DNA of 64,000 nucleotides from assembly GCF_014203225.1 (NCBI RefSeq), contig NZ_JACHIO010000025.1, forward strand, positions 1 through 64,000. The letters are read 5' to 3'. This document shows, in pieces, positions 8,401-57,349 of this stretch (position 1 is the stretch's first letter; each line of letters starts with the position of its first letter). The stretch comes from Granulicella mallensis (lineage in GTDB: Bacteria; Acidobacteriota; Terriglobia; Terriglobales; Acidobacteriaceae). The notes beneath the pieces are model-generated. The model had not been told where the DNA came from. It ran no database searches and saw only the letters and a list, made by a program, of their open reading frames with translations. The translations under genes and the position numbers were made by a program.

Positions 8401-8560
8401 CGGTCACTACGGTCTGACCGGGATGCGCGAGAGGGCGACGCGTATCGGAGCCAAACTGGCAATATCGAGCTCCACGCAGGGAACACAACTGGTACTGAGC
8501 GTTCCAGGAAGGGCGATCTATGCGTCGCCGCCTCTTCGAACCAAGTGGCGAGGGCGATAA
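5426..8560 (+). CDS. Beta-propeller sensor histidine kinase (Reg_prop/Y_Y_Y/HisKA_3), copy 1
   Basis: A one-piece sensor kinase of 1044 aa. A hydrophobic export segment (about residues 44-68) leads to a periplasmic double beta-propeller with many blades of the type DGYIWIGTDDGLFRFDG and NMWIGTDRGLYKF (about 75-670). A Y_Y_Y domain follows (VDYTALSYV...CNNDGVWN, about 705-785), then one transmembrane helix (about 795-815), a HisKA_3 DHp domain with the phospho-acceptor in RDLHDTLLQTIQG (His841) and a HATPase domain (NACLHS N-box, RDNGKGI, GHYGLTGMRER). It probably senses an extracytoplasmic ligand, possibly an oligosaccharide as in Bacteroidetes hybrid systems. There is no receiver domain and no regulator next to it. 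The TTG start is uncertain; ATG at 5447 is an alternative. It is very close to the copy at 54215-57349. Confidence 0.9.
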   Translation: MLLYDQVMRAVRPQFLRSSEISCSELRFTGLKRKLAYRKVEAPVSSLVTLAVCCFFFWCAPNANGLEPSTQIAQYGHTAWPTGRSGLTSPPRAIAQTSDGYIWIGTDDGLFRFDGVHFVRWNPPKGEGLPSQNITYLFGAHNGSLYIGTELGMARLTKDAFYIYSDRQRASGPFAEDAQGNVWVGQSSPSSESGSLCKVGETNLECHGDGLGCQRSSAVLSERSGSVWLGCDARIAHWQLNKPPESYPLPALKPLGIIHALAMDQEGSLWAGATCIGSGCGLLKFSDGAWHTFRTPQVDGRKLFVQSLLLDYRNNMWIGTDRGLYKFDQGNLDHYYTTDGLTGKLVHQIFEDKERNLWVVTSAGLDMFRDLPVVSFTTRQGLLDDNASAIEANRDGSVWIGTPGFINILRGQRFSYLKVPHAGNPGNVSIIFRNSQDQMWIVDDGQVFLYRNGRFDPLIGWQNVANHDVVCIAEDVHHQTWLLDHITGTLHYSLVRLKGTTVAETLLVPHALSQIEPDLRDGFWASGLLGGLFRFHDGALDRLPLIESNERILYMKADAEGALWFGGAQSGIVRYFEGRVQRLTSRNGLPCDAGYDTADDGQGSRWFYMRCGIVRVPNSELARWWRDSSYHVQSTIFNGYDDYKLQSYQDEVAAYFPSSGRLWSVSGTGAQRIDPSHLPSNAEPPPVHIEGLLVNHKEFLLNGKHNIPAAPREVEVDYTALSYVVPGRVRFRYRLLGHDKDWTDAGSRRQAFYTDLKPGHYTFQVIGCNNDGVWNNRGALLGFVVLPTWYQTPWFRLTCVSIGFVLVYSLYQLRIQRYSRAMKMRFDERLEERMRLARDLHDTLLQTIQGIKMVADQAKESAYEPAAASAFANRISEWSERASLEGRAALDSLRNSTTEGNDLAAAFRRSFENYVNDGTTSVNLSVTGKSKDMHPIARDEVYRIGDEAIRNACLHSGGQRIDIELVYDENMLLRVRDNGKGIDPMTLQAGKAGHYGLTGMRERATRIGAKLAISSSTQGTQLVLSVPGRAIYASPPLRTKWRGR

Positions 8561-32241: not shown

Positions 32242-32871
32242 CTATATGTTCAAAATGCCTCTGCGAATAGCGATAGATATGGCGTGTGCTCGGTCGTTGG
32301 CCTGCAGCTTATCCATGACATTCTTAACGTGAAAGTTTACTGTATTTTCCGATAGAGAGAGCTGTTCAGCGATCTGCTTATTCCGATTACCACTCTGAAT
32401 CAATCTGAGCACTTCCATCTCGCCCTCCGTGAGATTCTCTTGACCTAAATGTTCGGCAAGACGGCAGGCTACTCCGGTCGGAATATGCGTGCGCCCGGTA
32501 TGCACCGAGCGGATGATCGAAAACAATTCCTCCGACGGCGTGCTTTTCAAGACATAAGCTGAAGCGCCCGCGCAAAGAGCGCCCTTGATTTCGACGTCAC
32601 CTTCCGACGTGGTCAACATGATCACGCGAGCGGCGGCGAACTCCTTCCGAATTGCCACCAGGGCGCTTGTTCCGGTCTGGCCAGGAAGTCGTTGGTCCAT
32701 AAGCGTGATATCGGGTTTATGACGGCGGAACTCTTCGACTGCCTCTAATGAGGTCCCCGCCTGAGCTACTACCTGCATATCTGATTGCGACGCGATAATG
32801 ATGTTCAGCCCCTGTCGGAAGAGTGGATGATCCTCGACGACCATGATGCGGATTGGGTCGGATGACTGCAT
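32242..32871 (-). CDS. NarL/FixJ-family response regulator (copy 1, 209 aa)
   Basis: A receiver domain (residues ~5-125) with acidic pocket EDH, phospho-acceptor Asp59 in LMDQRLPG and Lys in VLKSTPSEE, then a LuxR-type helix-turn-helix (NLTEGEMEVLRLIQSGNRNKQIAEQLSLSENTVNFHVKNVMDKLQ). It is expected to bind palindromic DNA as a dimer when phosphorylated. ATG at 32871 has GGGAG eight bases upstream. It follows the kinase at 32999-36199 by 127 bp on the same strand and is its obvious partner. It is highly similar to the regulator at 40588-41217, particularly in the recognition helix, so the two could share DNA sites. Confidence 0.92.
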   Translation of the reverse strand: MQSSDPIRIMVVEDHPLFRQGLNIIIASQSDMQVVAQAGTSLEAVEEFRRHKPDITLMDQRLPGQTGTSALVAIRKEFAAARVIMLTTSEGDVEIKGALCAGASAYVLKSTPSEELFSIIRSVHTGRTHIPTGVACRLAEHLGQENLTEGEMEVLRLIQSGNRNKQIAEQLSLSENTVNFHVKNVMDKLQANDRAHAISIAIRRGILNI

Positions 32872-32998
32872 TGGGTTTGCTCCCTCTAGAGTTATGACAC
32901 GTGCCATGACTCCGGAAATGAATCGTGAATATGTGGATGAGGCCAGACGTGAAAGCAACATTTCATCGAGCCCACTCTGATCCTTGACGGTCCAATGC

Positions 32999-35900
32999 TT
33001 AATTGTGAGCACCACCTCCCGAGCCGTTATGGTGGGACGAATCCTGACCGAGGGCAAACAGCTTCAACAGTTGCGACCGTTTTGTAGGTCTATAGGTCTT
33101 GAAAACCACTGAGCCGGGAACAAGGAGGATTACCTCGGTTCCATTATTGGATGCCGTTCGCACTGAGAGCTTGGCGCCAATACGGTCCGCTCTTTCCCGC
33201 ATGCCCTCTAACCCAAAGTGTCCGGTCTTACCGGACTGTAAGGTCTTTTCTCCAATGCCCTTGCCGTTGTCTCTGATCCTCAGCTGAACATTGTGGTTAT
33301 AGGTGAGTTCAACCGTAACGAGACTTCCTCCAGAATGGACGCAGGCGTTATTGATGGCTTCGTATCCGATCCGGTAAATCTCATCTCTCACAATGGGATG
33401 CATGTCGCTGCTTGTCCCGCTGAGGACGTGGGATACCTGGATCGTGCTACCGATACGACAGTCTTCTGCTGCATGGCGAAAGGCCGCAGCTAGGTCGTTG
33501 GTGTCGACCGTCGAACTCCTCAGGGAGTTTAGAGCTGCTCGTCCCTCGAGTGTGGCTCGTTCCAACCACGTCGACACCAGATCGAGAGCCTTGTGCATGC
33601 GGGCAGAGTCGGTCGGTCGCTCAAGAGCATTGTCTGCAACCATCTTGCTGCCTTGAATTGTCTGGAGCAGCGTATCGTGCAGATCGCGAGCCAACCGCGT
33701 TCGCTCTTCGATCCGTTCGTCAAATCTGACCTTCAGCATGGTTGCATACTGTCTCATCCGGAATTGATAGAGACTGTAAGCAAGCATCGCCGCAACAACA
33801 ACGCATAGGAGCTTGAACCAGATAGTCTGATACCACGCTGGAGGAATCATGAAACCGATAGTGGCTTCGTGTGTGTTCCATACTCCATCGTTATTGCACG
33901 CAATCACTCGGAAGGTGTAATAGCCAGGACTAAGATCGTTATAAAAGGCCTGACGGCGCGTCCCCGAGTCGGTCCATTCCCTATCGTGGCCAGCCAGCTG
34001 GTAACGGAAGCGTACCTTAGCGGACGCAACATAGCTCAGTCCCGCATAGTCGACCTCAACCACTTGTGGAGATACAGGAAGAGTAAGACTACCGACTAAG
34101 GGATGGTCGGTGTGGCCGACGAGCAAATGTTCAATATGAACCGGCGGCGGCAGAGCATTTGATGGAAGTCGCCGTGGGTCGATCATCTGAAGAGCGCTTC
34201 CATTGACGGACCACAGCCGCCCATCCGGGCTGAAAAACGGCCGTTCACCACGAAGTCGGGGTAATGCGCCATCGGAGAGGGTGAAGGTCGTAATCGTAAG
34301 CTGACTCGTAGCGTTGCTCCACCAGCGGGAGATTTCACTGTCGCGGATGCGCAAAATTCCGCACTGCATAAAGAGCCAGTGGGCACCAACTCGGTCGTTT
34401 ATTACACTTAGGACGTTCTCGCAAGGAAGACCGTTCGAGCTCTTTATCGCTTGGGCCCTTCCATCCATGTAACGAATGGCACCTTGCGAGGTTGCAATCC
34501 AAAGCGCCCCGTCAGGGTCCGACGTCATATCGGCGACACGGCCGTCAAAGCCGGCGGGCTTGATCTGATCAAATGCTCCATTGTGGAACCGATACAAACC
34601 GTGAGAATACCCTGCAACCCACAGGCCCCCGCCAGGCTCCGGTGCAAGAACATTCAGTATCTGGTGGTCCGCCAGTGCGGGCGACGGAAAGCTTTCTGCT
34701 ACACGCAGGTTCTGGATACGAATGAGCGCGTTTCCTCGCTGATCAGCCAGGTTTTGGACGGATGCCCACAGTCGGTGACGAGAATCTTCCTCCATCTCTA
34801 TGACTTCGCCAACTCTGTCACCATATCGATCAGTGACAGGTGTGAATCGGCCGTGCTCGTATAGAAGGAGTTGTTGGCCTGCCCCCACCCAAATCCGATC
34901 ATGTGAATCGGAAAAGAGGTAGTGGATTTCACGCTTCAGGAATGGATCGGTGAAGTGGAGAAACTGCCCCTTGTCGAGAAGATTCAGCGTGTGACTCGCC
35001 CCAATCCACACGTCCCCGCTTCGGGACGTGGTTATTTGATTCGGCGCACCGGAAAGGCCTTCACGCGAGGTGAAGCTAATCACGGGAAGATCACGAAGGC
35101 TGTCGATGCCCCGGTCCGTCACAACCCACAGAGTGTGCTCCCGGTCTTCGAAAATCTGCTTGACTGCATCGCCGCTCAAACCGTCGGTCGTATCGAAGTG
35201 TTCAAGTTTCCCCTCGCTCAACCGGTAAAGCCCCTGCGATTCAGTCCCGATCCACAAGTCGCCACTACTATCAGTGCATAGAGATCTGACTGCAAGCTTC
35301 CGCCCATCCACTTGTGGCGTTACAAAGGTCTTCCACTTCTTTCCAGTGAGTTTAAGTAGTCCCGCATCTTGCCCTGTCGTCGATATACCACCCCAGATGG
35401 AACCTTCCTTATCGACTGCCATTGCTAGAACTGAGTGGTCTGACCTTCCGTGAGAAGGCAGGAGGTAATTCTCCGGAGGGGCATTTTCTCGCCACCGACA
35501 AATCCCCTGAGGGCCGCCGATCCAAATTGATCCAGTTTTTTCAGACGTTAAGGAATAGCTGTACATACAACTAAATCCATCTTTCATGCCCTGACAGGAG
35601 AGGTGGGTTTCTCCAACCGCGCAGAGCGTGCTCGAAGTCGACAGATTGCCCCAGTCGCCCGTCCAGATGCGCCCTTGGCCGTCCTCAAGTAGCGGTCCTG
35701 CCCACCGCAGGCTCTCGGGATAGCTGTAAACGCGTCCGTTGGTTATCCGGGCTACGCCGGCTTCGGTTGCTACGTAGAGACTGCCGTTTCGCGCTCCCAG
35801 TACAGATCGAATCGCCGCATTGATTAGAGATTCACCGGCAAGAGGAGTCCATTTGGTCAAGCGAATGCCATCGAATCGGAACAAGCCATCGGTAGTTCCG

Positions 35901-40202: not shown

Positions 40203-40625
40203 ATGGAAACGCTTCATATCTCTATCTTCGTCTTGTACTCCGTCGGGATCTCTCTAGTTGCCGCCCTCGGCTCGGGCCTGCATGTGATGTACCGGCGCGG
40301 TGTTCGCCGTCACGAACGGGTACTCGACGATACCTATTCTCAACGTTTTGAGCAGCGCACGCTGGTAGCCAAGTCCGTCCACCCACATTTAGAGCAGATG
40401 ATTCGTCGCAGTAAATCCGTCATTGATCAGGTACAACGGAAAGCAGATGGGCCAGAGACCACGGATGCCCTGAATCAGGTGTCAGAGTGGCTTGCTGGAG
40501 CGGCAGGAGAGAGTGATCGCGCGCTCAGATCACTTGAAAGTGGTTCTGCTACAGCGTTCAATAATGGTTACATCGCGAAAGGAGAACATGCCTACACCCA
40601 GACAAATTCGCATCATGGTCGTTGA
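40203..40625 (+). CDS. Membrane-anchored DHp-like protein lacking kinase domain (140 aa)
   Basis: One transmembrane helix (about residues 7-29) and a helical region (about 48-115) resembling only the dimerisation/histidine segment of the neighbouring kinases. AKSVHPHLEQMIRRSK aligns with ARDLHDTLLQTIQGSK (His60 keeps the phospho-acceptor position), and ALNQVSEWLAGAAGESDRALRSLES aligns with ALDRLSEWLDRASIEGRAALEALRS. The acidic residue after His is Pro, and there is no ATPase domain. The reading frame is open and overlaps the regulator start (40588) by 38 nt, implying translational coupling. It may be a degenerate kinase remnant or a dedicated partner, such as a decoy or phosphotransfer module, of the regulator. 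Confidence 0.6.
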   Translation: METLHISIFVLYSVGISLVAALGSGLHVMYRRGVRRHERVLDDTYSQRFEQRTLVAKSVHPHLEQMIRRSKSVIDQVQRKADGPETTDALNQVSEWLAGAAGESDRALRSLESGSATAFNNGYIAKGEHAYTQTNSHHGR

Positions 40626-41217
40626 AGATCATCCCGTATTCCGTGAAGGGCTAAATATGATCATTGCAGCCGAAGCGGATATGGAGACCGTGGCTCAAGC
40701 ATCGACCGCCGAGGAGGCACTTCAGGAATATCGCCGGACCAGGCCAGATGTGATCCTGATGGATCAGAGGTTGCCTGGTGCAAGTGGCACGGAAGCCTTG
40801 ATTGCCATCCGAAGCGAGTTTCCTCACGCCAAGATTATGATGCTCACAACCTCAAGCGGGGATATCGAAATTCAGCGTGCTCTCCGCGCGGGCGCTACCG
40901 CGTATGTCCTTAAAAGCACGCCGAAGAATGAGTTGCTAAGGATCATCCGGACCGTGTCGATGGGGCGTAAGCATATCCCATCCGACGTAGGCAGTAGTTT
41001 GGCGGAGCACATGGGGCAGGAGGACCTGACGCCGCGCGAGTTGGAAGTCCTTGAACTGATCCGCGAAGGAAACAAGAACAAGCAGATCGCCGATCAGTTG
41101 GGTATCTCGGAGACCACCGTCAACTTTCACATCAAAAATATCGTTGACAAACTGCAAGCGAATGACAGGACGCACGCGGTCACGATCGCCTTGCGGCGGG
41201 GTTTGCTCCAGATTTGA
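40588..41217 (+). CDS. NarL/FixJ-family response regulator (copy 2, 209 aa)
   Basis: A receiver domain with EDH, phospho-acceptor Asp59 (LMDQRLPG) and Lys in VLKSTPKNE, then a LuxR-type HTH (DLTPRELEVLELIREGNKNKQIADQLGISETTVNFHIKNIVDKLQANDRTHA). ATG 40588 is preceded by AGGAGAAC inside the DHp-only gene. The stop TGA lies close to the start of the kinase at 41253, so DHp protein, regulator and kinase form an operon. It is nearly superimposable on the regulator at 32242-32871. The matching recognition helices suggest overlapping DNA targets. Confidence 0.92.
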   Translation: MPTPRQIRIMVVEDHPVFREGLNMIIAAEADMETVAQASTAEEALQEYRRTRPDVILMDQRLPGASGTEALIAIRSEFPHAKIMMLTTSSGDIEIQRALRAGATAYVLKSTPKNELLRIIRTVSMGRKHIPSDVGSSLAEHMGQEDLTPRELEVLELIREGNKNKQIADQLGISETTVNFHIKNIVDKLQANDRTHAVTIALRRGLLQI

Positions 41218-44639: not shown

Positions 44640-47600
44640 ATGAGCGTTGAGATTTGCCGACCACGCGATGATGATCGAAAGCGCCATGCCCACGATCCTT
44701 CGCGCGCGCTTGTATTGAGCTTCTGTTGGATGTGGCTTATTTCAGTCCTATCTGTTCCCGCCAGGGCCCTTGACCCCAACATGAATGTTTCTCAGTTCGC
44801 CCACGCCGCATGGCTGACTCAGGATGGATACTTTAGTGGGCCGCCCAGCGTGATTGCCCAGACCAGCGATGGTTACCTTTGGATCGGCACAGGATCCGGT
44901 CTAATGCGCTTTGACGGTTCACGGTTTCTGCCATGGGCATCCCCGGATGGGAAACGCTTGCCATCGAACTGGATAACCTCTCTGCTCGGGGCAAGGGATG
45001 GAAGTCTCTGGATTGGGACACTAGCCGGCCTTGCGCACTTCGTGGACGGGAAACTGGTCCAGTTTCCCAATTTTGGCGACGCGGTATTTTCGCTCTTTGA
45101 GGACCCTGCAGGGAAAATCTGGTTTACGCGTGATGGCGTACAGAGATCGCCCCCACTTTGTGAAGCTTCAGGCACCCTCATTCATTGTCTAGACAAAACA
45201 GATGGCGTCTCGGTTACGGGCCTTTCAGCTACGCTCATAAGGGATATATCAGGAAATCTATGGGCGGGCACAGATCGTGGCCTCTTCCGCTGGCAGTCGA
45301 ATTCTTTCGCGAACTATCTTTCGCCTGGACTTGAGAACTCAGAGGGGCATGACGGCGTGACGGCCCTCGCGCAGGGTCCGGATCGATCGCTATGGGTTGG
45401 AATGGCTTGGACTGGTAGAGGCCGGGGACTTCAGCAGTTCAGAGACGGAATTTGGAAGCCCTTGATCGAGCCGGGTTTGGATAGCTCAACCTTGAGCGTA
45501 ATCGCCATGTTGCTCGACCGCATGGGGAACTGTGGGTGGGAACGGCAAACCAGAGGATTTATCACATCCACGGCAGCCATGTAGATCGATTTCGCTCGGA
45601 AGACGGCCTCTCTGTGAACAAAGTCAGGAGTTTCTATGAGGACCATGAAGGCGGGATTTGGGCTGTTACGACGCGTGGTATTGAGAGTTTCCATCGACCG
45701 CAGGTCGTTACATTTTCAACGCGAGAAGGGCTCAGCGTAGACAACGTGGTGTCCGTCGTTGTCTCTTCGGACGACACAGTTTGGCTTGCCAATGGCAATA
45801 GCCTGGACTCGATAAAGGACGGCCATATATCGTCCGTTCGATCGGGCGCAGGTCTGCCTGGCAACGAGGTGACTGCGCTCTTCGCAGATCACGCCGGTCA
45901 ATTGTGGGTGGGCGTCGATTATGATCTGTTTTTGTACAAACAAGGCCGGTTCAGCCGCGTCGTTCGGAGCGATGGAAGTTCGACCCGGTTCATCGTAGGG
46001 ATGACCGAAGATATAAACCATGACATTTGGGCTGAAGTCAGTGGGTCGGATAAAGAGTTGATCCGTATCCGAAACTTGAAGGTGGTTGAGGAATATCCAG
46101 CGGCCGTGATTCCGTCCGCGCGCCTTCTCGCAGCTGATTCACATGGCGCAATCTGGTTGGGACTTCGAGATGGCAACTTGGCAAGATTCCGCAACGGCCA
46201 AGCTGATGTATTTGCTTTTCCGCACTCGGAATCGGATGAGGTCCGCCAGGTCGCTGTCAATTCCGACGACTCCGTATTTGCCGCAACGGCATATGGCTTG
46301 ATTGCATGGCGAAATGGCAAGACTCAAACCCTGACCTCTCGCAACGGCCTGCCCTGCGATGCCGTTATCGGAATGAATTGGGATCATCAAGGGGCGCTGT
46401 GGCTCTATATGGAGTGCGACTTGGTTCGAATAGATAAAGAAGAGGTTCAAAAATGGTGGAATGCCCCGACAGCTAGAGTCATCACAAGGGTCTTCGATTC
46501 ATTCGATGGCCTACAGTCTGGAAAGGCCGACAACAACCCGACCGGACAATCAAGCGATGGAAGACTCTGGTTCGCGAATAAAGTTGTCTTGCAAATGATC
46601 GATCCGAGTCACCTGTTTCGCAATGAAATCCCACCCCCGGTGCATGTGGAGAGCGTAGCAGTAGATGGAAAGCAGTTTCTGCCGCGGGGACAGTTCGTCT
46701 ACCGCCCCTGGTACGTGATTTAGAAATCGACTATACGGCATTAAGTTTCGTTAACCCACGATGAGTAAGGTTTCGTTACCGGCTTGAAGGTCGAGATGCA
46801 TCCTGGCAGGAAGCAGGCACGCGTCGGCAGGCGTTCTACAACGACCTGGGTCCTGGGCAATATCGGTTCCATGTGATCGCTTGCAACAATGATCAGGTTT
46901 GGAACGAAGCCGGAGCAACTCTAGTCTTCAACATTCCGCCCGCGTGGCACCAGACCAACTGGTTCAGAGCGTTGTGTGTGGTTGTGCTGATATGGCTGAC
47001 TTCTGTGCTGTATCTCGTAAGGATGAATAGGTATGCCAAATCCATGAAAGTGAGATTTGATGAGCGATTAGGCGAGCGAACGAGACTAGCTCGTGAACTG
47101 CATGACACGCTGTTACAGACAATTCAGGGAAGCAAGCTGGTGGCTGACGGAATAGAGGAATACCTGGATGATCCCCTCAGGGCGAAGCAGTCTTTAGCGA
47201 AGCTTTCGCAGTGGCTTTCGCAGGCGATGGATGAAGGTCGAGCCGCTCTCGAATCTCTTCGTAATGCGGCGTCATCCGAAGAGCTATCCGAGGCTCTTCG
47301 GCATATCGCGAATGAATGCGCTCCCAACTCTATGCGGGTATTTCTGACAGTTACCGGCAATGTCTGCCCCCTCCATCCCGTCGCCAGAGATGAAGTGTGT
47401 TGCATAGCATTTGAAGCGATTCGAAATGCCTGTGCTCATTCCAGCGGGTCAGCGATGACGATAGCCGTGAGCTACGATCGCGACCTTAAGATTCAGGTTG
47501 ACGATAACGGACGCGGTATCGATCCAGACCTGATACAAACAGGTAAACCAGGTCACTTCGGAATTACAGGCATGAAAGAGCGTGCATCCAAGATCGGCGC

Positions 47601-47739
47601 GCGTCTGCTGCTGCGGACGTCCATAAAGGATGGAACGAAGTTCTCGCTCCTCGTTCCGGGACACGTAATCTTCCGATCTTCTGCGCGCCGTTGGTCGCGG
47701 CTCCTATATAAACTCACATTCCCATTTACGAAGAAATAG
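44640..47739 (+). pseudogene. Beta-propeller sensor histidine kinase, copy 4, inactivated by two frameshifts and a stop
   Basis: Three frames together reconstruct one ~1030-aa kinase. 44640-45526 gives the export helix and first propeller. At 45524-45527 (GGGG) one base is missing, after which ELWVGTANQRIYH continues. At 46705-46708 (CCCC) another base is missing, after which LVRDLEIDYTALSFVNPR begins the Y_Y_Y domain. An in-frame TGA at 46762-46764 then interrupts it. The last part (to 47739) has the transmembrane helix, REL-H-DTLLQTIQGSK and a complete ATPase domain. Both frameshifts are in homopolymers, so sequencing error is possible for those, but not readily for the TGA. No palindromic motif was found upstream, unlike the intact copies. 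Confidence 0.85.
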
Positions 47740-49269: not shown

Positions 49270-50259
49270 TTACTTAGAAACGATCTCCGCTAACGTGAGA
49301 CTGTACAAATAGTCTGCGTCTGACCATTCTTTGATGGGCGTGAAGCCAGCTTGAAGGAGCCAAGAACCCATCATTGCAGATGAGAACTTGTAGCTGTTCT
49401 CAGTATGGATCGTTTCGCCACGAACAAATTGAATCTCCAACTGAGGGTTCTCAGGACTTGCTGGAATGCGAACCTGCTGCGAGATCTTGGATTCGAGGTG
49501 CATCTCAATGCGGGATTCGGTGGGGTTCCATACTGTCAGATGCTTAAAGTTACTTAGCCGAAAATCTGTACCGATCTCGCGATTCAGTCGCCGAAGCACA
49601 TTGAGGTTGAAAGCAGCCGTCACTCCTGCCGTATCGTCATATGCTGAGACGAGTGTCGCCTTGTCCTTGACGCGATCTGCGCCAATAAGAATCAGGTCTC
49701 CTAGCAATAGCTCTCCGCGAAGTTTCAACAGTAGATCGAGGGCGTCTGGCGGTGAGAAATTGCCGATGCTCGAACCGAGGTACATCAAAAGGACCCGCGT
49801 GTCCGGAGGCCGAGCGTAATTGAGAGCTTCAACCGTATAGTCGGTTATCTGTGGCGAAACAGTTATGCCCGGAATGGACGCTTCGATGTTCAATCGTGCC
49901 GCCCTCAGCGCCGTCGCTGATACATCAATGGGATGATAGGAGACCGTACCCTGGCGCCGAGCAAGCTCCGACAGGAATATGCCTGTCTTGACGGCTGTTC
50001 CAGCTCCGAGTTCCACGACCATCACTCGATGCCTTCCAAAAGCTAGCGACACGATCTTGGGGGCGTAGTCGGTCAAAATCTTCCGCTCCGTCCGGCTGAG
50101 ATAATACTCTGGCAAAGCTGTAATTTGTTCAAAGAGGAGCGACCCTTCCGCATCGTAGAAGAGCCAAGGGGCTAGGGTCTTAGGCTGACCGAGCAATCCT
50201 TTGATTGCCTCGGCCACGACCGCTCCGCAATAATCAACGACGTTAGAGTTTGTTGACAT
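49270..50259 (-). CDS. egtD: L-histidine N-alpha-methyltransferase EgtD-like (329 aa)
   Basis: A SAM-dependent enzyme that trimethylates histidine to hercynine, the first step of ergothioneine synthesis. The family blocks are clear: PKTLAPWLFYDAEGSLLFEQITALPEYYLSRTE, VVELGAGTAVKTGIFL (SAM site), YLGSSIGNFSP, AYDDTAGVTAAFNLNVL and the substrate-binding C-terminal FVRGETIHTENSYKFS. Length matches EgtD (~320 aa). None of the genes for the later steps (EgtB sulfoxide synthase, EgtE lyase) is in the window. It lies 40 bp downstream of the MerT-kinase fusion on the same strand, so it appears to be the last gene of the metal-type operon, an unexpected context for EgtD. Confidence 0.9.
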   Translation of the reverse strand: MSTNSNVVDYCGAVVAEAIKGLLGQPKTLAPWLFYDAEGSLLFEQITALPEYYLSRTERKILTDYAPKIVSLAFGRHRVMVVELGAGTAVKTGIFLSELARRQGTVSYHPIDVSATALRAARLNIEASIPGITVSPQITDYTVEALNYARPPDTRVLLMYLGSSIGNFSPPDALDLLLKLRGELLLGDLILIGADRVKDKATLVSAYDDTAGVTAAFNLNVLRRLNREIGTDFRLSNFKHLTVWNPTESRIEMHLESKISQQVRIPASPENPQLEIQFVRGETIHTENSYKFSSAMMGSWLLQAGFTPIKEWSDADYLYSLTLAEIVSK

Positions 50260-50298: not shown

Positions 50299-51447
50299 TC
50301 AGGCGAGGAAGATCGCCTGGCCAGGCACGAACAGGGTGACGATCGTGCCTGTTGCCGAACTGACAACCGTGAGCTTTGCTCCGATGCGAGCAGCCCGCTC
50401 GCGCATACCGATCAGCCCGTAATGACCCGATCTGCCGGCTTGCAGGATGTGCGGGGCGATGCCTTCGCCATCGTCCTGGATACTCAAGAGCATATTTTGA
50501 TCGTAGACAAGCTCGACGATGAGGCGGTTACCTCGGGAATGGTTGCAGGCATTCAATATGGCCTCATGTCCAATCTTGTAAACCTCATCTCGAGCGATTG
50601 GATGCATTTCCCTGCTCTCCCCGATAACCACCAATTCCAAATCCATCTGAGCATTACAGCCGTTGAAAGCCTCTCGTAAAGATCCGGCGAGGTGATTGTT
50701 CTCGGTTGTAGAAGCACGAAGAGAGTCTAAAGCAGCTCTACCTTCAAGGACAGCGCGCTCCAGCCAAGAGGAGAGGCGGTGAAGGGCAATCTTGGCCGCG
50801 GGCTCTTGCACATTATTCCGTTCATTGTCAGCCACTAGTTTTCCGCTTTGAATGGTTTGTAGCAACGTATCGTGCAGATCGCGCGCTAGACGGGCCCTCT
50901 CTTCGAGCCGTTCGTCAAAGCGCATCTTCATTGATGCCGCCTTGAGGCGGAGTCGATACAGATATAGCGAGCAGCCAATCGCAATCACCAGAAAGCCACA
51001 TAACAGGCGAAACCATACAAATTGGTACCACTCGAGTATGTCCCCCAGGACATAGGCCATGAAGAAGCCGAATGACCAGATCGTAGCCGATCCCCATAGG
51101 AGCATACGGCTGAACTTACTCACCCGCCCGCACATGGTCGGATCATCTTCTATGCAAACTTCCCCTTCCTTGATCCGAGGAGCCATCCAATACGTCATCA
51201 TGAAGCTCATGCTAATAAGCGCGGCGGCGATAGCGAACGTCCACACTTTATGCTTCGACATAGTCACAAGCCATGGAGCGACTGAGAGCGCGGAAGCTAC
51301 AGAGGCTCCCATCCCCATCAATACGAGCAATGACGGTAAGGCGCAGCAAAGGAGCGTGCTGAAGGATCCAAACAGTGACACATAGTTCATCAGTGACGCC
51401 TGACGAACCCGCTTGATCGCTGGCATTGGAAGCGAAGAAGCTGTCAT
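50299..51447 (-). CDS. MerT-like metal-transporter domain fused to a sensor histidine kinase (382 aa)
   Basis: Residues ~20-138 are a MerT-like membrane protein: helix I with the vicinal pair Cys34-Cys35 in STLLCCALPSLLVLMG, further helices at ~68-88 and ~115-137, and a loop with a second Cys pair (Cys98, Cys106). At residue ~139 the sequence switches to the end of a propeller-type kinase: WYQ..WFRLLC plus transmembrane helix (~145-165), MRFDERLEERARLARDLHDTLLQTIQ (His192), N-box HEAILNACNHS, ATPase G-boxes QDDGEGI and GHYGLIGMRERAARIG. The propeller and Y_Y_Y domains are replaced by the MerT unit. It overlaps the upstream HMA gene by 4 nt (ATGA). It probably couples metal uptake or binding to phosphorylation of an unlinked regulator. 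Confidence 0.88.
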   Translation of the reverse strand: MTASSLPMPAIKRVRQASLMNYVSLFGSFSTLLCCALPSLLVLMGMGASVASALSVAPWLVTMSKHKVWTFAIAAALISMSFMMTYWMAPRIKEGEVCIEDDPTMCGRVSKFSRMLLWGSATIWSFGFFMAYVLGDILEWYQFVWFRLLCGFLVIAIGCSLYLYRLRLKAASMKMRFDERLEERARLARDLHDTLLQTIQSGKLVADNERNNVQEPAAKIALHRLSSWLERAVLEGRAALDSLRASTTENNHLAGSLREAFNGCNAQMDLELVVIGESREMHPIARDEVYKIGHEAILNACNHSRGNRLIVELVYDQNMLLSIQDDGEGIAPHILQAGRSGHYGLIGMRERAARIGAKLTVVSSATGTIVTLFVPGQAIFLA

Positions 51448-51935
51448 TTGGACACCGCGATCGTCTTGTATCGAAGGGTGACCGGAACCTTACCTCTCGC
51501 CGACTGAGGTAATACACCTTGTACGATTACAGATTTTCCCATTAGGGACGCAACATCGACTCCTTGAGCGAACGGCACTAATGCATAGCGATCGTTCGTG
51601 CCTGTTACCTGCAGGAGCGGTGCTTTCGACGAGCCTGATAGAACACCCTCGACAAGCACATCTGCATCTTGATGTGCGAAGCCGTTCTTTTCCACGGCCT
51701 CGTTGAACTGTCTCAGTTCAGCTGTACTTCCAGCCGTCAATTTGATCGTTACCAGCCCCTTGTTCAGGTCGACATCAACGCCGCTGACCCCACGGACGTT
51801 CTTCATAGAGAGCCGGATTGCGAAGGCGCACGGAGGACAGTCCATTCCGAAGACCGTCATATTGATCTGCTTGTACTGGCCCTGAGCGGTCAGCGCACAC
51901 ATTCCAAGGATTCCGGCAATTGCAATCTTCTTCAT
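51444..51935 (-). CDS. Exported heavy-metal-associated (MerP-like) protein with C-terminal extension (163 aa)
   Basis: A signal peptide (MKKIAIAGILGMCALTAQGQ) precedes an HMA ferredoxin-like fold with FGMDCPPCAFAIRLSMKNVRGVSGVDVDL, a GMxCxxC site (Cys33, Cys36) of the MerP/CopZ type. A second ~70-residue beta-rich domain follows (VLVEGVLSGSSKAPLLQVTG...VTLRYKTI), not found in plain MerP. ATG 51935 is 11 nt after the stop of the outer-membrane protein. Its own stop overlaps the start of the MerT-kinase fusion, so it would hand metal ions to the MerT-like domain. The metal is unknown (Hg, Cu or another thiophilic ion). Confidence 0.85.
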   Translation of the reverse strand: MKKIAIAGILGMCALTAQGQYKQINMTVFGMDCPPCAFAIRLSMKNVRGVSGVDVDLNKGLVTIKLTAGSTAELRQFNEAVEKNGFAHQDADVLVEGVLSGSSKAPLLQVTGTNDRYALVPFAQGVDVASLMGKSVIVQGVLPQSARGKVPVTLRYKTIAVSK

Positions 51936-51946
51936 CACCAATCTCT

Positions 51947-52822
51947 TCAACGAGAGCGACTCCGCGACGAGTATTTGAGGTAGCTGAGGTTGATTCCGAA
52001 ACGAATGCGCTCACGGCCATAAATGGCATCCGATTCATCACGAATGATTGGACCCTGGACGCCAGCCTCGACTGCGAATTCCTTAAAGATCCCCAAGACT
52101 GAAGGTCCCAGCCACGCCGTAGTGGAACTGCTGTTTGGCAGAATGGTTCCGCCGCTTTTCACCCCTCCGGTATGCTCGCCAGTTAACTCGACAAACCCGC
52201 GGTAATCCCATTGGTCCACGCCTCGACGCAGTTTAGATGGGCGGTAGCCATATGTCACACTCCATGAGGTCGTGTCTGGTCTCCGGTCGTGTGAGGCTTC
52301 GGCAAACCGGGTGTAACCGCTGCCGACCCAAAGATATTGACTCCGCGAAGTCATCCCCGCGGCTAAGGATCCCGCGACACCCGGTGCTCGATGCAGATTG
52401 CCAAGTACGCCCGTGGCAGATTGTGGACCTGGAGCAACCGCGCTTAGAGACACTGTTGACTCCAACCGGCGCCCCACACCTCTGCCTGAGTCGAGAAAGC
52501 GCCAAGACGTGCCAGCTGCCCACTCTGAACCGCTCATGATTCGGCTTTCTGGCAGATCGCCTGTTCCGAACATGGCAGGTAGAAAGGCGTTGAGGGTAAC
52601 GTGCGGCCTAAGTCCATACCCAAACCCCGAGCCAGTTGAAAATTGAGTTCCCCCAGATCCGGTACGGCCAAAGAGTCCAGTGTCAAAACTGAACTCCCCT
52701 TCAGCATTAACAGGCGTCGCGTAACTGAACAAGGGGCTATGATCTGCTGCGTACGCTGAAGATGACATGATCATAGAGCACACGCAAAATAATGCGAATC
52801 GCGTCCACGTTTTTTCGATCAA
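51947..52822 (-). CDS. Putative outer-membrane beta-barrel protein of the metal-type operon (291 aa)
   Basis: A signal peptide (RFALFCVCSMIMSSSAYAA) and a Gly/Ser/Tyr/aromatic-rich body with alternating strands (FSTGSGFGYGLRPHVTLNAFLP, YLWVGSGYTRFAEA, WSVTYGYRPSKL) and no helices point to a small barrel. The C-terminus is basic (SYLKYSSRSRSR) and lacks the usual terminal Phe. A TTG start at 52822 places the signal peptide correctly; the frame continues open to 53014. The stop is 11 nt from the HMA gene, so it is the first structural gene of the operon. I do not recognise a named family; a metal-loaded porin or efflux channel role is inference. Confidence 0.6.
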   Translation of the reverse strand: MIEKTWTRFALFCVCSMIMSSSAYAADHSPLFSYATPVNAEGEFSFDTGLFGRTGSGGTQFSTGSGFGYGLRPHVTLNAFLPAMFGTGDLPESRIMSGSEWAAGTSWRFLDSGRGVGRRLESTVSLSAVAPGPQSATGVLGNLHRAPGVAGSLAAGMTSRSQYLWVGSGYTRFAEASHDRRPDTTSWSVTYGYRPSKLRRGVDQWDYRGFVELTGEHTGGVKSGGTILPNSSSTTAWLGPSVLGIFKEFAVEAGVQGPIIRDESDAIYGRERIRFGINLSYLKYSSRSRSR

Positions 52823-53004
52823 ATCACGTGTACTACGGAGTCGTACCTTGGACCTGTGCCAAGCGACCGCATTTTTACCTTCGCGCTGCCCCAAGCTTCT
52901 GATGCACCCAAGACGCGTATCGAGAGGCCTCCAGCGTGATTTGGCAGACGCGTAAGCATTGCACATTCGATAAGCATATGTGGCGTGAGGAATTTGCCGC
53001 CCAT

Positions 53005-53034
53005 AGAAAAACATAGGTATCTATCAGTTTTTCT
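53005..53034. promoter_or_regulatory. Inverted repeat upstream of the metal-type operon, related to 23200-23221
   Basis: AGAAAAAC (53005-53012) and GTTTTTCT (53027-53034) flank a core whose minus-strand reading TGATAGATACCTAT matches the palindrome upstream of P460 copy 2. It lies in the 380-bp gap 52823-53202 between the sigma factor and the outer-membrane protein gene. Probably an operator for the operon. Confidence 0.5.
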
Positions 53035-53202: not shown

Positions 53203-53889
53203 TCAACAATCACCGCAGGCGTGGAAGGTCTTCTCCCGAGTCCTATGTGCATTGAACCGTCTCTGAAGCATCCGGCGGGCACGGTGAAGCCGGGCTTTGA
53301 TGACCCCTTCCGTTGACATAAGCGCCTGCGCCGTACAGCGGACACTACATTCATCGATAAGGCGCATCTGCAACACTTCTCGGTAAATCGTTGGAAGATC
53401 CGCTATGGCTCGCTGCAAATGAGATCGCAACTCAGTCCGCTCCAGACGTAGTAGAGCACTTTCCTGTTTGTCGCAGATGTATCGAGCGGGTAGCGGCGCC
53501 GTCTGACTCGAAAGAGAATCCAAAGAAACGGCAACCCCGTTTTTGCGACGCCGTAAACAGGCCCGCGCCTCGTTCAGGACAATGCTGGTGAGCCAGGTGC
53601 TGAATTTAGATTCAGATCGAAAACTTGCTAACTTACGATATGCCCGCAGAAAGCTCTCCTGAGCGGCATCTTCAGCATCGGCTTCGTTCCGAAGCATCAC
53701 GAATGCCATGCGGTAGACAAGCGCCTCGTAGGGTCGGACGAGATCATGGTAAAGATTCGTATCCCCGGCGAGGATCGATTCGATTATCTGTGTCTCATCG
53801 CGGATTGCTGACGAATAGTCCGTGCATCTGATGAGAACCGGTGACGACTGACTTTGGGACGAAGCGATTACGGGTCGAAGGGTTTCCAT
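53203..53889 (-). CDS. ECF sigma factor with C-terminal HxCxxC motif (228 aa)
   Basis: A sigma-70 family extracytoplasmic-function factor. Region 2 is YHDLVRPYEALVYRMAFVMLRNEADAEDAAQESFLRAYRKLASFRSESKFSTWL; region 4 is LQRAIADLPTIYREVLQMRLIDECSV...STEGVIKARLHRARRML. ATG 53889 follows GGAGGT with proper spacing. After region 4 a ~20-residue tail ends in HACGDC, and further Cys occur in RYICDK and DECSVRC. No anti-sigma gene is adjacent. Some ECF factors (CorE type) sense metals directly through a C-terminal Cys-rich tail, so a similar role upstream of the metal-type operon is a reasonable inference. The promoter it recognises cannot be read with confidence. Confidence 0.85.
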   Translation of the reverse strand: METLRPVIASSQSQSSPVLIRCTDYSSAIRDETQIIESILAGDTNLYHDLVRPYEALVYRMAFVMLRNEADAEDAAQESFLRAYRKLASFRSESKFSTWLTSIVLNEARACLRRRKNGVAVSLDSLSSQTAPLPARYICDKQESALLRLERTELRSHLQRAIADLPTIYREVLQMRLIDECSVRCTAQALMSTEGVIKARLHRARRMLQRRFNAHRTREKTFHACGDC

Positions 53890-54161
53890 GGTGGTCATAC
53901 CTCCAGTCAAAAGGGCCGGCGCAAAGCGTTGTTACCGCGTTGAACCTTAATTTCAAGGATTTCGTCCGCTTCAGGAAGATTAGAAGCAACAGGACTGGAG
54001 CTACATATTTCTGCAGGTCTGTCCGGCACAGCGGGCAGACTGCGAACTCAATCAACAGAGTTGCAAGTGTTCTCTGAGTGACGAAAAGCAGAATGCTCTT
54101 GTCTTTGCCAACTCGCCAAAGATTTTGCGAGTCGACGGAGCGTCTCGCTAAATCGTCGATA

Positions 54162-54214: not shown

Positions 54215-57200
54215 GTGGAGAACCTGCGTTTATGGCCAGCTGTTCGGATCACAAACGGAGCGAACACATCGATTGATGTGGCACTTTCGTGTCCTCCGTC
54301 ACGGCTGGGAGCTAAGCTCGTAGCCCTGTGCCTCCTTCTGGCCTGTAGTGGCCCGGCACATGCGCTGAACCCATCGACCCGGATTGCGCAGTATGGACAC
54401 AAGGTTTGGCGCATTGGCGAGAGTGGCCTCGATAGCTCCCCCAAGGCGATTGCCCAGACAACAGACGGCTATATCTGGGTTGGGACAGCCAATGGCCTGT
54501 TTCGATTCGATGGTATTCGCTTCACCCATTGGACTCCTCCGGTCGGCGAGCGACTTCCCGGTCAGGATGTCTCACAGGTGTTTGGCGCGCGCGATGGCAG
54601 TTTGTATGTGGGAACAGAGTTGGGGCTGGCGCGGGTGACCAACGGTCATGTCTATGACTATCCAGAGAAGCAGAGGCTACCTGGGCCATTTCTCGAAGAC
54701 TCGCACAATGAAATCTGGATGGGGCAAGGCGACTGGGAAGCCGGCGGTCAGCCGAGGATGTTCTGCAAAATAGGTGATCTGCACATCTCCTGCATCAGCA
54801 AGCGAGACGGATTTGGATGTACACGCGGATTCTCTATTGCGTCGGAAAAGCCAGGGTCGATATGGGTCGGCAGCGAAGACAGCATCTGCCATTGGCAAGC
54901 GGGGGCGAAGCCTCAGACGTACCGTCTGCCAAATATGGGTTATTCGAAGTCATTCAACTATGTGCTGGCGCTCGTTGCGGATCAAGATGGGACGATATGG
55001 GCGGGCCGGCGGGACAGCGGTCCCTCAGGCGGGTTACTGCAATTCTCCAATGGACAATGGAAGAGTTATGTAGCCCCGGAAGTTGACGGTAAAACACTTT
55101 CTGTAAGCTGTCTCTTCTTCGATCATAACCATTCGATGTGGATTGGGAGTCAATCCAAAGGTCTTTACAAGCTCAGCGACGGGAGACTCGATCACTACGA
55201 CACAACGAACGGCCTTAGCGGCAACTACTTGCGTAGCATCTTTGAAGATAGAGAAGGTGATCTTTGGGTAGCGACAAGCGGCGGAGTTGGCGAATTTCGC
55301 GATCTTCCGGCTATCTCCTTCACTTCAAACCAAGGGTTATCGGGTGAAGACGCTTCCAGTATTGCGGCAGCCGCGGACGGACATGTTTGGGTTGGGATGT
55401 ACCATGGCATCGATGTTTACCAGGGTCAGGATTTCTCGCATTTGAAATCTTCGGCTTCTTACACCGACTTGCTCTACAACGATTCACAAGGAAGAATGTG
55501 GGCCTCAGCCGGGCAGAAACTACTGACGCACCTTGGCGGAAACGTTATCGAAGTGACGGGCCCGGAGGGTATGAAAATCCACTATGCTGCAGCGATTGCG
55601 CAGGATACCCATCACCAGATATGGATATCGGACATCGATCAGCATTCACGCGAGAAGGCTCTCTATCGCCTGGATGGAACCCGCGTGGTTGCTAAATTTC
55701 CCACGCCCGAAAATCAGACGCTATTTTTAGCTCCCAACCCCCAAGGCGGTTTGTGGGCCGGTGGTTATGTTCACGGTTTGTTCTGGTTCCGCGATGGACA
55801 ATTCGAGCCCGTCAAAGGCTATGACGGAAGTGTCTACGGCCTGACATCAGACCCAGATGGCACTCTATGGATCTCGAGCGTTGAACATACGTTCTACCGA
55901 TTTCAGAATGGAGAGGTGCGAAGCTTAACGACGAAAGACGGAATGCCCTGTGATACCGGATTTTCAATCGTTGATGATCGCGTAGGTTCACACTGGTTCT
56001 ATATGACTTGCGGCATCATAAAGGTTAGTGACGAGGAGCTTGCACAGTGGTGGCGCAAACCCAGTCACCTTCTGCGAACGACCGTCTTTGATTTCCGCGA
56101 CGGCGTCAGGCCGGGGCTCGGAGGCGGTAGCACGTCCGTGACGATCGCTCCAGACGGCCGCCTCTGGTCGACTAACGGCAGTATCGTCCAAGTGGTCGAT
56201 CCTCACAATATTCCATACAACTCGATTGCTCCACCCGTTCATATCGAGCGGATCATCGTCGATCGCGAGGATCTGCCGCTGAGTACTAGCCTCCGATTCC
56301 CGATCTCGCCGCGAGACACTGAAATTGACTATGCGGGATTGAGCTATGTTTTGCCGGAGAAGGTGAGATTTCGCTATCGTCTGGTTGGACATGACAGAGA
56401 CTGGATCGATGCTGGAATGCGCCGTCAGGCCTTTTACAGCGACCTTCGCCCGGGCCACTACACGTTTCAGGTAATCGCCTGCAACAACGATGGAGTGTGG
56501 AATCTTGTCGGAACTCTATTCCGATTCACAGTACCTCCTGCCTGGTACCAGACGGTTTTGTTTCGATTGTTGTGCGTTCTCTTGTCGTTGGCGTCGACAT
56601 ACTCCATCTATCTGATGAGGATACGGCAGTATCGAGCGGCAATGAAAGTACGGTTCGATGAACGGTTGGAAGAACGCACACGACTTGCGCGCGATCTGCA
56701 CGATACCTTGCTGCAAACTATCCAAGGGATGAAGATTGTTGCAGATCAGGCGAATGAGACCATCTACGAGCCAACCGCTAAAAAGTTTGCACAACGTATC
56801 TCCGAATGGTCAGAGCGGGCTTCAAGGGAGGGCCGGGCGGCGCTAGACTCGCTCCGCAACTCAACGACGGAAGGAAATGACCTCGCAACAGCCCTTCGCG
56901 GTTCTTTTGAGGACTGTGCAATCAATCGCGCCATCGCCGTGAATCTATCGGTAATGGGCAAGAGTAAAGAAATGCATCCGATTGCGCGGGATGAGGCCTA
57001 TCGGATAGGCGATGAAGCGATTCGCAATGCTTGCCTTCATTCGAATGGTCATCGAATCGACATCGAACTCGTCTACGACGACAACCTTCTGCTTCGCATT
57101 CGCGACGACGGAAGAGGAATTGATTCGACCATCTTGAAAAGCGGGAAGGCTGGCCACTATGGTTTGACCGGCATGCGCGAACGCGCCGCTCACATCGGTG

Positions 57201-57349
57201 CCAAACTCGTGGTGTCCGGTTCATCAGACGGGACGGAGATCGTCTTGCGAATCCCCGGGAACACGATCTTCAAGAAAGCTTCTGCAAGTCTTGTGACGCG
57301 CCTTCTTAGGCTAATTCGACGGATGACAAAGGGGCCTCTGTCCGATTGA
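54215..57349 (+). CDS. Beta-propeller sensor histidine kinase, copy 5 (1044 aa)
   Basis: Export helix (LVALCLLLACSGPAHA), two propellers (DGYIWVGTANGLFRFDG, SMWIGSQSKGLYKL, DLWVATSGGVGEF), Y_Y_Y domain (IDYAGLSYVLPEKVRFRYRLVG...CNNDGVWN), a transmembrane helix (LLCVLLSLASTYSIYLMRI), HisKA_3 with RDLHDTLLQTIQGMK (His829) and HATPase (NACLHSNG, RDDGRGID, GHYGLTGMRERAAHIG). The GTG start has AGGATTAGGAACT upstream. It is an orphan kinase, with no regulator beside it. It is the closest relative of 5426-8560, sharing TTEGNDLA and RIDIELVYD in the catalytic part. The MerT-kinase fusion has the same type of transmembrane/DHp/ATPase module. Confidence 0.9.
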   Translation: MENLRLWPAVRITNGANTSIDVALSCPPSRLGAKLVALCLLLACSGPAHALNPSTRIAQYGHKVWRIGESGLDSSPKAIAQTTDGYIWVGTANGLFRFDGIRFTHWTPPVGERLPGQDVSQVFGARDGSLYVGTELGLARVTNGHVYDYPEKQRLPGPFLEDSHNEIWMGQGDWEAGGQPRMFCKIGDLHISCISKRDGFGCTRGFSIASEKPGSIWVGSEDSICHWQAGAKPQTYRLPNMGYSKSFNYVLALVADQDGTIWAGRRDSGPSGGLLQFSNGQWKSYVAPEVDGKTLSVSCLFFDHNHSMWIGSQSKGLYKLSDGRLDHYDTTNGLSGNYLRSIFEDREGDLWVATSGGVGEFRDLPAISFTSNQGLSGEDASSIAAAADGHVWVGMYHGIDVYQGQDFSHLKSSASYTDLLYNDSQGRMWASAGQKLLTHLGGNVIEVTGPEGMKIHYAAAIAQDTHHQIWISDIDQHSREKALYRLDGTRVVAKFPTPENQTLFLAPNPQGGLWAGGYVHGLFWFRDGQFEPVKGYDGSVYGLTSDPDGTLWISSVEHTFYRFQNGEVRSLTTKDGMPCDTGFSIVDDRVGSHWFYMTCGIIKVSDEELAQWWRKPSHLLRTTVFDFRDGVRPGLGGGSTSVTIAPDGRLWSTNGSIVQVVDPHNIPYNSIAPPVHIERIIVDREDLPLSTSLRFPISPRDTEIDYAGLSYVLPEKVRFRYRLVGHDRDWIDAGMRRQAFYSDLRPGHYTFQVIACNNDGVWNLVGTLFRFTVPPAWYQTVLFRLLCVLLSLASTYSIYLMRIRQYRAAMKVRFDERLEERTRLARDLHDTLLQTIQGMKIVADQANETIYEPTAKKFAQRISEWSERASREGRAALDSLRNSTTEGNDLATALRGSFEDCAINRAIAVNLSVMGKSKEMHPIARDEAYRIGDEAIRNACLHSNGHRIDIELVYDDNLLLRIRDDGRGIDSTILKSGKAGHYGLTGMRERAAHIGAKLVVSGSSDGTEIVLRIPGNTIFKKASASLVTRLLRLIRRMTKGPLSD

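Follow-up and report, generated by a model that had tools for sequence, protein, structure and literature searches.

A MerT-like membrane domain fused to a HisKA_3 sensor kinase in Granulicella mallensis and four further genomes

The locus and its fusion gene

The window, by which we mean the whole 64,000-nucleotide stretch of DNA analysed here (Granulicella mallensis, contig NZ_JACHIO010000025.1, positions 1 to 64,000), contains a minus-strand operon in which a MerT-like membrane domain and a sensor histidine kinase are encoded as one protein. The first gene of the operon (51947-53014, minus strand) is conserved and barrel-like, has no Pfam match and, judging from its sequence, probably encodes an outer-membrane barrel; its first ~70 codons may be over-called, the counterparts in operons with a stand-alone MerT-like gene having 281-305 aa. 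Next comes a gene for a MerP-like HMA protein (51444-51950, minus strand) with a CxxC motif at residues 38-41 and a C-terminal extension, the stop codon of which overlaps the start of the fusion gene (ATGA). No other HMA match in this genome reaches E ≤ 0.001, and 13 of 14 control genomes have a match above the cut-off. Upstream of the operon lie an ECF sigma factor gene (53203-53910, minus strand) and, divergently oriented, a Reg_prop/Y_Y_Y sensor kinase gene (54215-57349, plus strand). The order propeller kinase, sigma factor, barrel-like gene, MerP-like gene and fusion is the same at all five known fusion loci (the sigma factor being present in 5/5), and near stand-alone MerT-like genes only distant relatives of the sigma factor were seen. 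Behind the fusion gene the window holds an intact EgtD-type histidine methyltransferase gene (49270-50259; 317.4 bits, cut-off 290.9), which we rejected as a part of the system since in the other four genomes no more than short remnants of it were found in this place.

The fusion gene itself (50299-51447, minus strand) reads as one frame of 382 aa with no internal stop, and its coordinates, frame and strand held as given in a preliminary description of this DNA. Residues 1-139 (51031-51447, minus strand) form the MerT-like input half, with three predicted helices, recognized from stand-alone homologues and a MerT profile comparison. Residues 140-382 (50302-51030, minus strand) form the kinase half, in which Pfam, an alignment, a tree and a structure model place a fourth transmembrane helix (TM4), a HisKA_3 domain with His192 and a HATPase_c domain. 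In Pfam searches HisKA_3 (residues 183-246) scores 32.2 bits against a cut-off of 24 and HATPase_c (288-375) 34.6 bits against 26.4, and residues 1-139 give no match above cut-off. With these two domains, the phospho-acceptor His192 (in HDTLLQ) and the motifs at residues 294, 325 and 341, which we take to be the N, G1 and G2 boxes, the product is a HisKA_3 sensor histidine kinase, and with a transporter-family domain N-terminal to the kinase it is also a transporter-kinase fusion. It does not belong to the Reg_prop/Y_Y_Y kinases, as Pfam finds no propeller and no Y_Y_Y domain in its 382 residues and only the C-terminal end is common to both. Four cysteines, Cys34-Cys35 in predicted TM1 and Cys98 and Cys106 in the TM2-TM3 loop, are all present in the sequence, as are the intact catalytic motifs that had been described with them.

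Hydropathic segments lie within residues 22-63, 66-90, 115-138 and 137-168, and lysines plus arginines in the five stretches outside the helices number 3/1/5/0/9, with the helix limits set by hand and Lys67 one residue outside the first loop. The predicted topology has the N-terminus inside, four transmembrane helices and the C-terminus inside, so that the Cys98/Cys106 loop and the kinase would both be cytoplasmic.

Origin of the two halves and of their join

The input half is a remote relative of MerT. At E ≤ 1 the window protein gives no match to the Pfam MerT model (PF02411, cut-off 32.9 bits), its own genome gives none at E ≤ 10, and three of 17 aligned MerT-like members match weakly (best E 0.032); the NCBIfam model MerT_CopZ_Se matches the MerT-like protein at E 0.34. 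Profile-profile comparison by hhalign with six annotated plasmid MerT-family proteins gives 87.4% over nearly the whole length and, with 34 rows, a probability of 94.2% (E 1.1e-7, 96 columns); a control family of cation-efflux membrane proteins from neighbouring loci reaches 0.3% against the MerT-like profile and 0.1% against MerT. The profile of alignment A1, which excludes L045 and L046, also finds intermediates to MerT, namely a MerT-MerP fusion (L130, E 3.3e-4), which passes the Pfam MerT cut-off with 43.4 bits, and a stand-alone relative (L128, E 3.5e-21), which scores 31.2 bits against the same model when its in-frame TGA is read as selenocysteine. Homology to MerT is thus found both by profile and through intermediate sequences, and like MerT of the Tn21/Tn501 type the fusion has a vicinal cysteine pair in TM1, a second pair before TM3, in a loop predicted from the charge pattern to be cytoplasmic, and a MerP-like partner. 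In contrast to MerT, it stays below the Pfam cut-off, is encoded in the order barrel-MerP-MerT, carries a kinase and has no MerA above cut-off in its genome, where the MerA model gives 17 matches, all below cut-off (one of 14 control genomes has a match above it). An ordinary mer operon is therefore not supported, and on these comparisons the input half represents a distant MerT subfamily that falls outside MerT proper. What had been called a complete MerT-like unit is MerT-like by profile-profile comparison, yet as a distant relation that Pfam does not place in the family.

Below-cut-off matches to DUF4149 in five of the 17 members (best E 7.2e-4) were dismissed as noise from membrane helices; the two of them that were displayed in detail span ~50 residues. 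In L128 (positions 1483-1854, genome G440) the TGA codon takes the place of the second vicinal cysteine (IC-TGA-TLP versus LCCALP) and probably codes for selenocysteine, a residue also found in the NCBIfam family of MerT/CopZ selenoproteins.

Elsewhere in the family the MerT-like gene stands alone and mostly encodes 137-147 aa. A typical stand-alone protein ends in YLLGPILER-MDR and a stop, and the fusion reads YVLGDILE followed directly by WYQFVWFRLL, a loss of only some four residues from the end of the stand-alone protein. WYQFVWFR starts at residue 140, and W140 aligns with W777 of the adjacent propeller kinase (54215-57349), whose Y_Y_Y match ends at 773, so that the join lies four residues past the equivalent Y_Y_Y end, just where the preliminary description had put it. 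The best matches of the kinase half in the genome are this adjacent kinase (61%) and the kinase at 5426-8560 (60%), and the tree places it as sister to the clade that these two form, with support of 93/85 on an unstarred branch. The proposed capture of the domain from the kinase family expanded in the window is supported by this placement; a direct copy of the adjacent kinase is not, as the fusion branches outside the clade. Like the Reg_prop/Y_Y_Y kinases (54215-57349 and others), the fusion has a TM-DHp-CA end of the donor type, in contrast to which the propeller and Y_Y_Y input have been replaced by the MerT-like unit.

The fused MerT-like halves group in one clade (100/100), which has a stem of 0.77 and is nested among stand-alone sequences from the Edaphobacter group; because this stem is long the function of the fused clade may have shifted. 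In an alignment of 17 sequences, that of the window and 16 stand-alone ones, C34 and C106 are invariant and C35 and C98 almost so. Among the positions that 90% or more of 28 stand-alone sequences share, seven vary in at least one fused copy (16, 23, 63, 75, 92, 136 and 141); none is a cysteine, 141 belongs to the lost tail, and 136, where the proline is replaced by Asp or Gly, adjoins the join. As part of our best overall explanation, the fusion probably arose once, at the end of the third helix of a MerT-like protein, onto the TM-DHp-ATPase end of an island kinase. The Y_Y_Y domain of such donor-type kinases is periplasmic. Because the three MerT helices would end on the same, periplasmic side and the donor helix re-enters the cytoplasm, the join preserves the topology of both parents, and it would illustrate a straightforward way in which a transporter becomes a receptor, through a single join at the membrane boundary.

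Recurrence, selection and transfer

The same domain pairing, sought in other genomes as had been suggested, is present in four besides the window (G000), namely Edaphobacter lichenicola X5P2 (L002, also referred to as G306), E. lichenicola M8UP22 (L003, also referred to as G221), G150 and G308; the fusion of a MerT-like domain with a kinase is therefore real, as had been claimed from the single frame. Three of the further copies are full-length and 96, 96 and 92% identical to that of the window, and the copy in M8UP22 is 92% identical over residues 1-366 and has a frame change in the last ~17 codons; the MerP-like gene of M8UP22 is interrupted as well. The preliminary description had named a frameshift or assembly junction at 51000-51060 in read data, or a lack of homologous fusions combined with an inactive kinase, as what would speak against it. 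Homologous fusions exist, and a frameshift or assembly error is rejected because the same fusion occurs in five genomes, in G308 on a 5.6-Mb contig. The searches sampled 300 genomes from the family and 396 from the phylum, and two of them scored 6 and 10 first-look candidates per genome. Matches were found in 23 of the 300 family genomes, with the fusion in three (G000, G150 and G221), and no fusions beyond the five were found in either sample (in the phylum with 10 candidates scored per genome). By genus, the fusion is found in 4 of 62 genomes of that of G150 and in 1 of 28 of that of the window. In G311 and G339, long open frames (388 and 449, respectively) were rejected as further fusions, being out-of-frame upstream extensions of genes that end in DR and a stop. 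Truncated or fragmentary copies (G073, G264 and G146, and a second fragment in G101) were excluded from alignments and neighbourhood counts.

All five fused copies retain the four cysteines and the kinase motifs, and purifying selection acts on both halves: dN/dS for residues 1-139 and 140-366 is 0.166 and 0.060 between the window and X5P2, 0.085 and 0.088 between the window and G150, and 0.079 and 0.082 between X5P2 and G150. The fusion could instead be neutral or decaying, in which case it would be a transporter whose tail has no use and which travels with the island. The altered end of the M8UP22 copy, the interruption of the adjacent propeller kinase in G150 and G221 and an island kinase that lies in three pieces in the window (44640-47739) would fit such decay. 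However, the values of 0.06-0.09 for the kinase half hold over dS up to 0.58 and the motifs are intact in all five copies, and we regard this explanation as very improbable.

The window from 12 to 64 kb is largely collinear, in inverted orientation, with G308, where several genes are absent, and is less collinear with G221. Taking rpoB as the single yardstick gene, the fusion differs between the window and G308 by a dS of 0.18 and rpoB (a 2.3-kb part) by 0.61, and between G308 and G150 by 0.52 and 0.26, respectively. Because the dS of the fusion is low relative to rpoB and the gene occurs in so few genomes of the window's genus, sequence divergence suggests that at least the fusion gene moved between genera after the fusion had arisen. 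The genes of the block vary widely in dS (0.13-0.56); between the window and X5P2 the values are 0.19 for the barrel-like gene, 0.35 for the MerP-like gene, 0.36 for the sigma factor and 0.56, near the rpoB value, for the adjacent propeller kinase, and this mixture speaks against the whole block having moved in one recent event.

Proposed sensing mechanism and signalling partner

MerT is reported to take Hg(II) over from MerP at Cys24/25 and to relay it to Cys76/82 (PMC5715351). In the model that we favour, with a probability of about 0.6, the fusion is a thiophilic-metal sensor kinase that receives its metal from the MerP-like protein and has a NarL-type regulator from the island as its signalling partner. 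The product would be a four-helix membrane sensor kinase, as charge and hydropathy predict; the MerP-like partner would hand a soft metal ion through its CxxC to Cys34/Cys35 in TM1, from where the ion would pass to Cys98/Cys106 in the cytoplasmic loop, and occupancy of the site would shift TM3 against TM4. Because TM4 and the DHp form one helix in the AlphaFold model (residues 141-212), this movement would tip the balance between kinase and phosphatase activity at His192, from where the phosphate would go to the regulator. In favour of this model are the recurrence of the fusion together with its neighbours in five genomes, the purifying selection on both halves, the retained cysteines, the charge pattern, the overlap of the MerP-like gene with the fusion start, the relay reported for MerT and the precedent of Ks-Amt5, in which a transporter was recruited as kinase input. 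Against it are the poor modelling of the MerT half, the operon's lack of a regulator, the lack of a MerA or heavy-metal P-type ATPase above cut-off in the genome, the altered C-terminal end of one of five copies and the long fused stem.

The two models of the MerT half are of low confidence (mean pLDDT 60.8 in one of them), because of which the coupling geometry is not reliably modelled, and for this half neither Foldseek nor a PDB sequence search found a PDB chain. For the kinase half, VraS and DesK rank first among 1000 chains ranked by Foldseek (VraS 4gt8, Z 17.3, rmsd 2.0, 126 aligned; DesK 5iuk_D, Z 17.3, rmsd 11.1, 209 aligned). That these are its nearest solved structures, and that DesK is reported to sense with its transmembrane helices alone (PMC8534201), would suit a quite unlikely alternative in which the MerT half is a mere membrane anchor or dimer scaffold and the kinase senses the membrane state, as DesK does, or another protein. 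DesK, with five transmembrane helices and no extracytoplasmic sensor domain, resembles the fusion in having a small membrane input that leads straight into the DHp. It differs in that its reported signal is temperature, sensed through the membrane state (PMC8534201); cysteine pairs or a MerP partner are not known for it. A mere anchor, however, would have no use for four conserved cysteines or for an overlapping, conserved MerP-like gene, nor does it sit well with a dN/dS of 0.079-0.17 for the MerT half.

The metal-sensor model supposes that the kinase reads occupancy. It could also read flux, if the protein were a transceptor, in which a MerP-fed MerT-type carrier still moves a soft metal inward and its transport cycle sets the attached kinase, reporting to a regulator common to the island kinases. 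Such a protein would be expected to keep all four cysteines under strong constraint, as observed. In addition, the matches listed for four of the five fusion genomes (the window's, G150, G221 and G306) include no stand-alone copy, so that the fused copy is probably the sole member of the subfamily there; the G306 matches are listed down to E 2.6e-29, and nearly all complete stand-alone copies score better. However, G308 carries a stand-alone copy alongside its fusion, the fused clade has its long stem and has lost the conserved proline at the end of TM3, and in Ks-Amt5, which joins a histidine kinase to an ammonium transporter domain, the recruited domain is reported to bind ammonium without moving it and so to have lost transport (PMC5764959). 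We consider the transceptor a possible but unlikely reading; because stand-alone and fused versions coexist in the same genus, sensing of occupancy and of flux can be separated by experiment.

Transporter-kinase fusions are already known, and what appears new here is the MerT-like input, for which, as a kinase fusion, no report was among the papers listed by the literature searches (a search for propeller kinases in Acidobacteria gave none either). Ks-Amt5 is similar in that a transporter domain was recruited as kinase input with no HAMP, PAS or STAC linker in between (PMC5764959); it differs in combining a trimeric Amt with a HisKA-type kinase, in contrast to three predicted helices and HisKA_3. 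The SLC5/STAC kinases CbrA, CrbS and RpuS likewise join a transporter domain to a histidine kinase, with a 13-helix symporter and STAC (and PAS) linkers as described in PMC9100948, neither of which Pfam finds in the fusion, and 5TMR kinases are reported to have the same fold as ECF S-components (PMC11109136). With three predicted helices and four cysteines, the MerT-like half would be the smallest transporter-derived kinase input known to us.

Stand-alone loci bear on the identity of the ligand. Barrel-like and MerP-like genes lie upstream at 17 of 19 such loci, the exceptions being L046 (neither gene found) and L048 (a MerP-like fragment only). A gene for a small Cys-rich protein (CCxxMxGxC..CC), which from its sequence likely binds metal, occurs in the operons at 10 loci and heads many of them (e.g. 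L034:12003-12359, whose product has no Pfam match, and L036:16868-17221); at fusion loci it gave chance-level matches only. Metal genes near stand-alone loci include a P-type ATPase family scored as copper-type (3 loci), a cation-efflux-related protein (5 loci) and a CusA/CzcA-type pump (1 locus). Because of the Cys-rich genes and these copper-type ATPase and efflux neighbours, and because the genome has no MerA above cut-off, our guess is a soft metal such as copper; mercury is possible. No heavy-metal P-type ATPase in the window's genome exceeds the cut-off (296 bits versus 346; 13 of 14 control genomes are above), and the sole match (L143, G000:C6:146681-148279) lies inside an open frame of 1279 codons.

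The fusion operon has no response regulator gene, and two NarL-type regulators in the window are candidate partners. The first (40492-41217, plus strand) matches its counterparts in G308 and G221 at 98% and 94% identity, respectively, and no window gene that matches over at least 90% of its length shows a higher value; the second lies at 32242-33057 (minus strand). HDTLLQTIQ is identical in seven aligned kinases of the contig, including two that adjoin regulators, which fits, without proving, a regulator common to these kinases. The propeller kinase that occupies three ORFs in the window is a single frame of 1033 aa in X5P2 (L002, 7967-11068).
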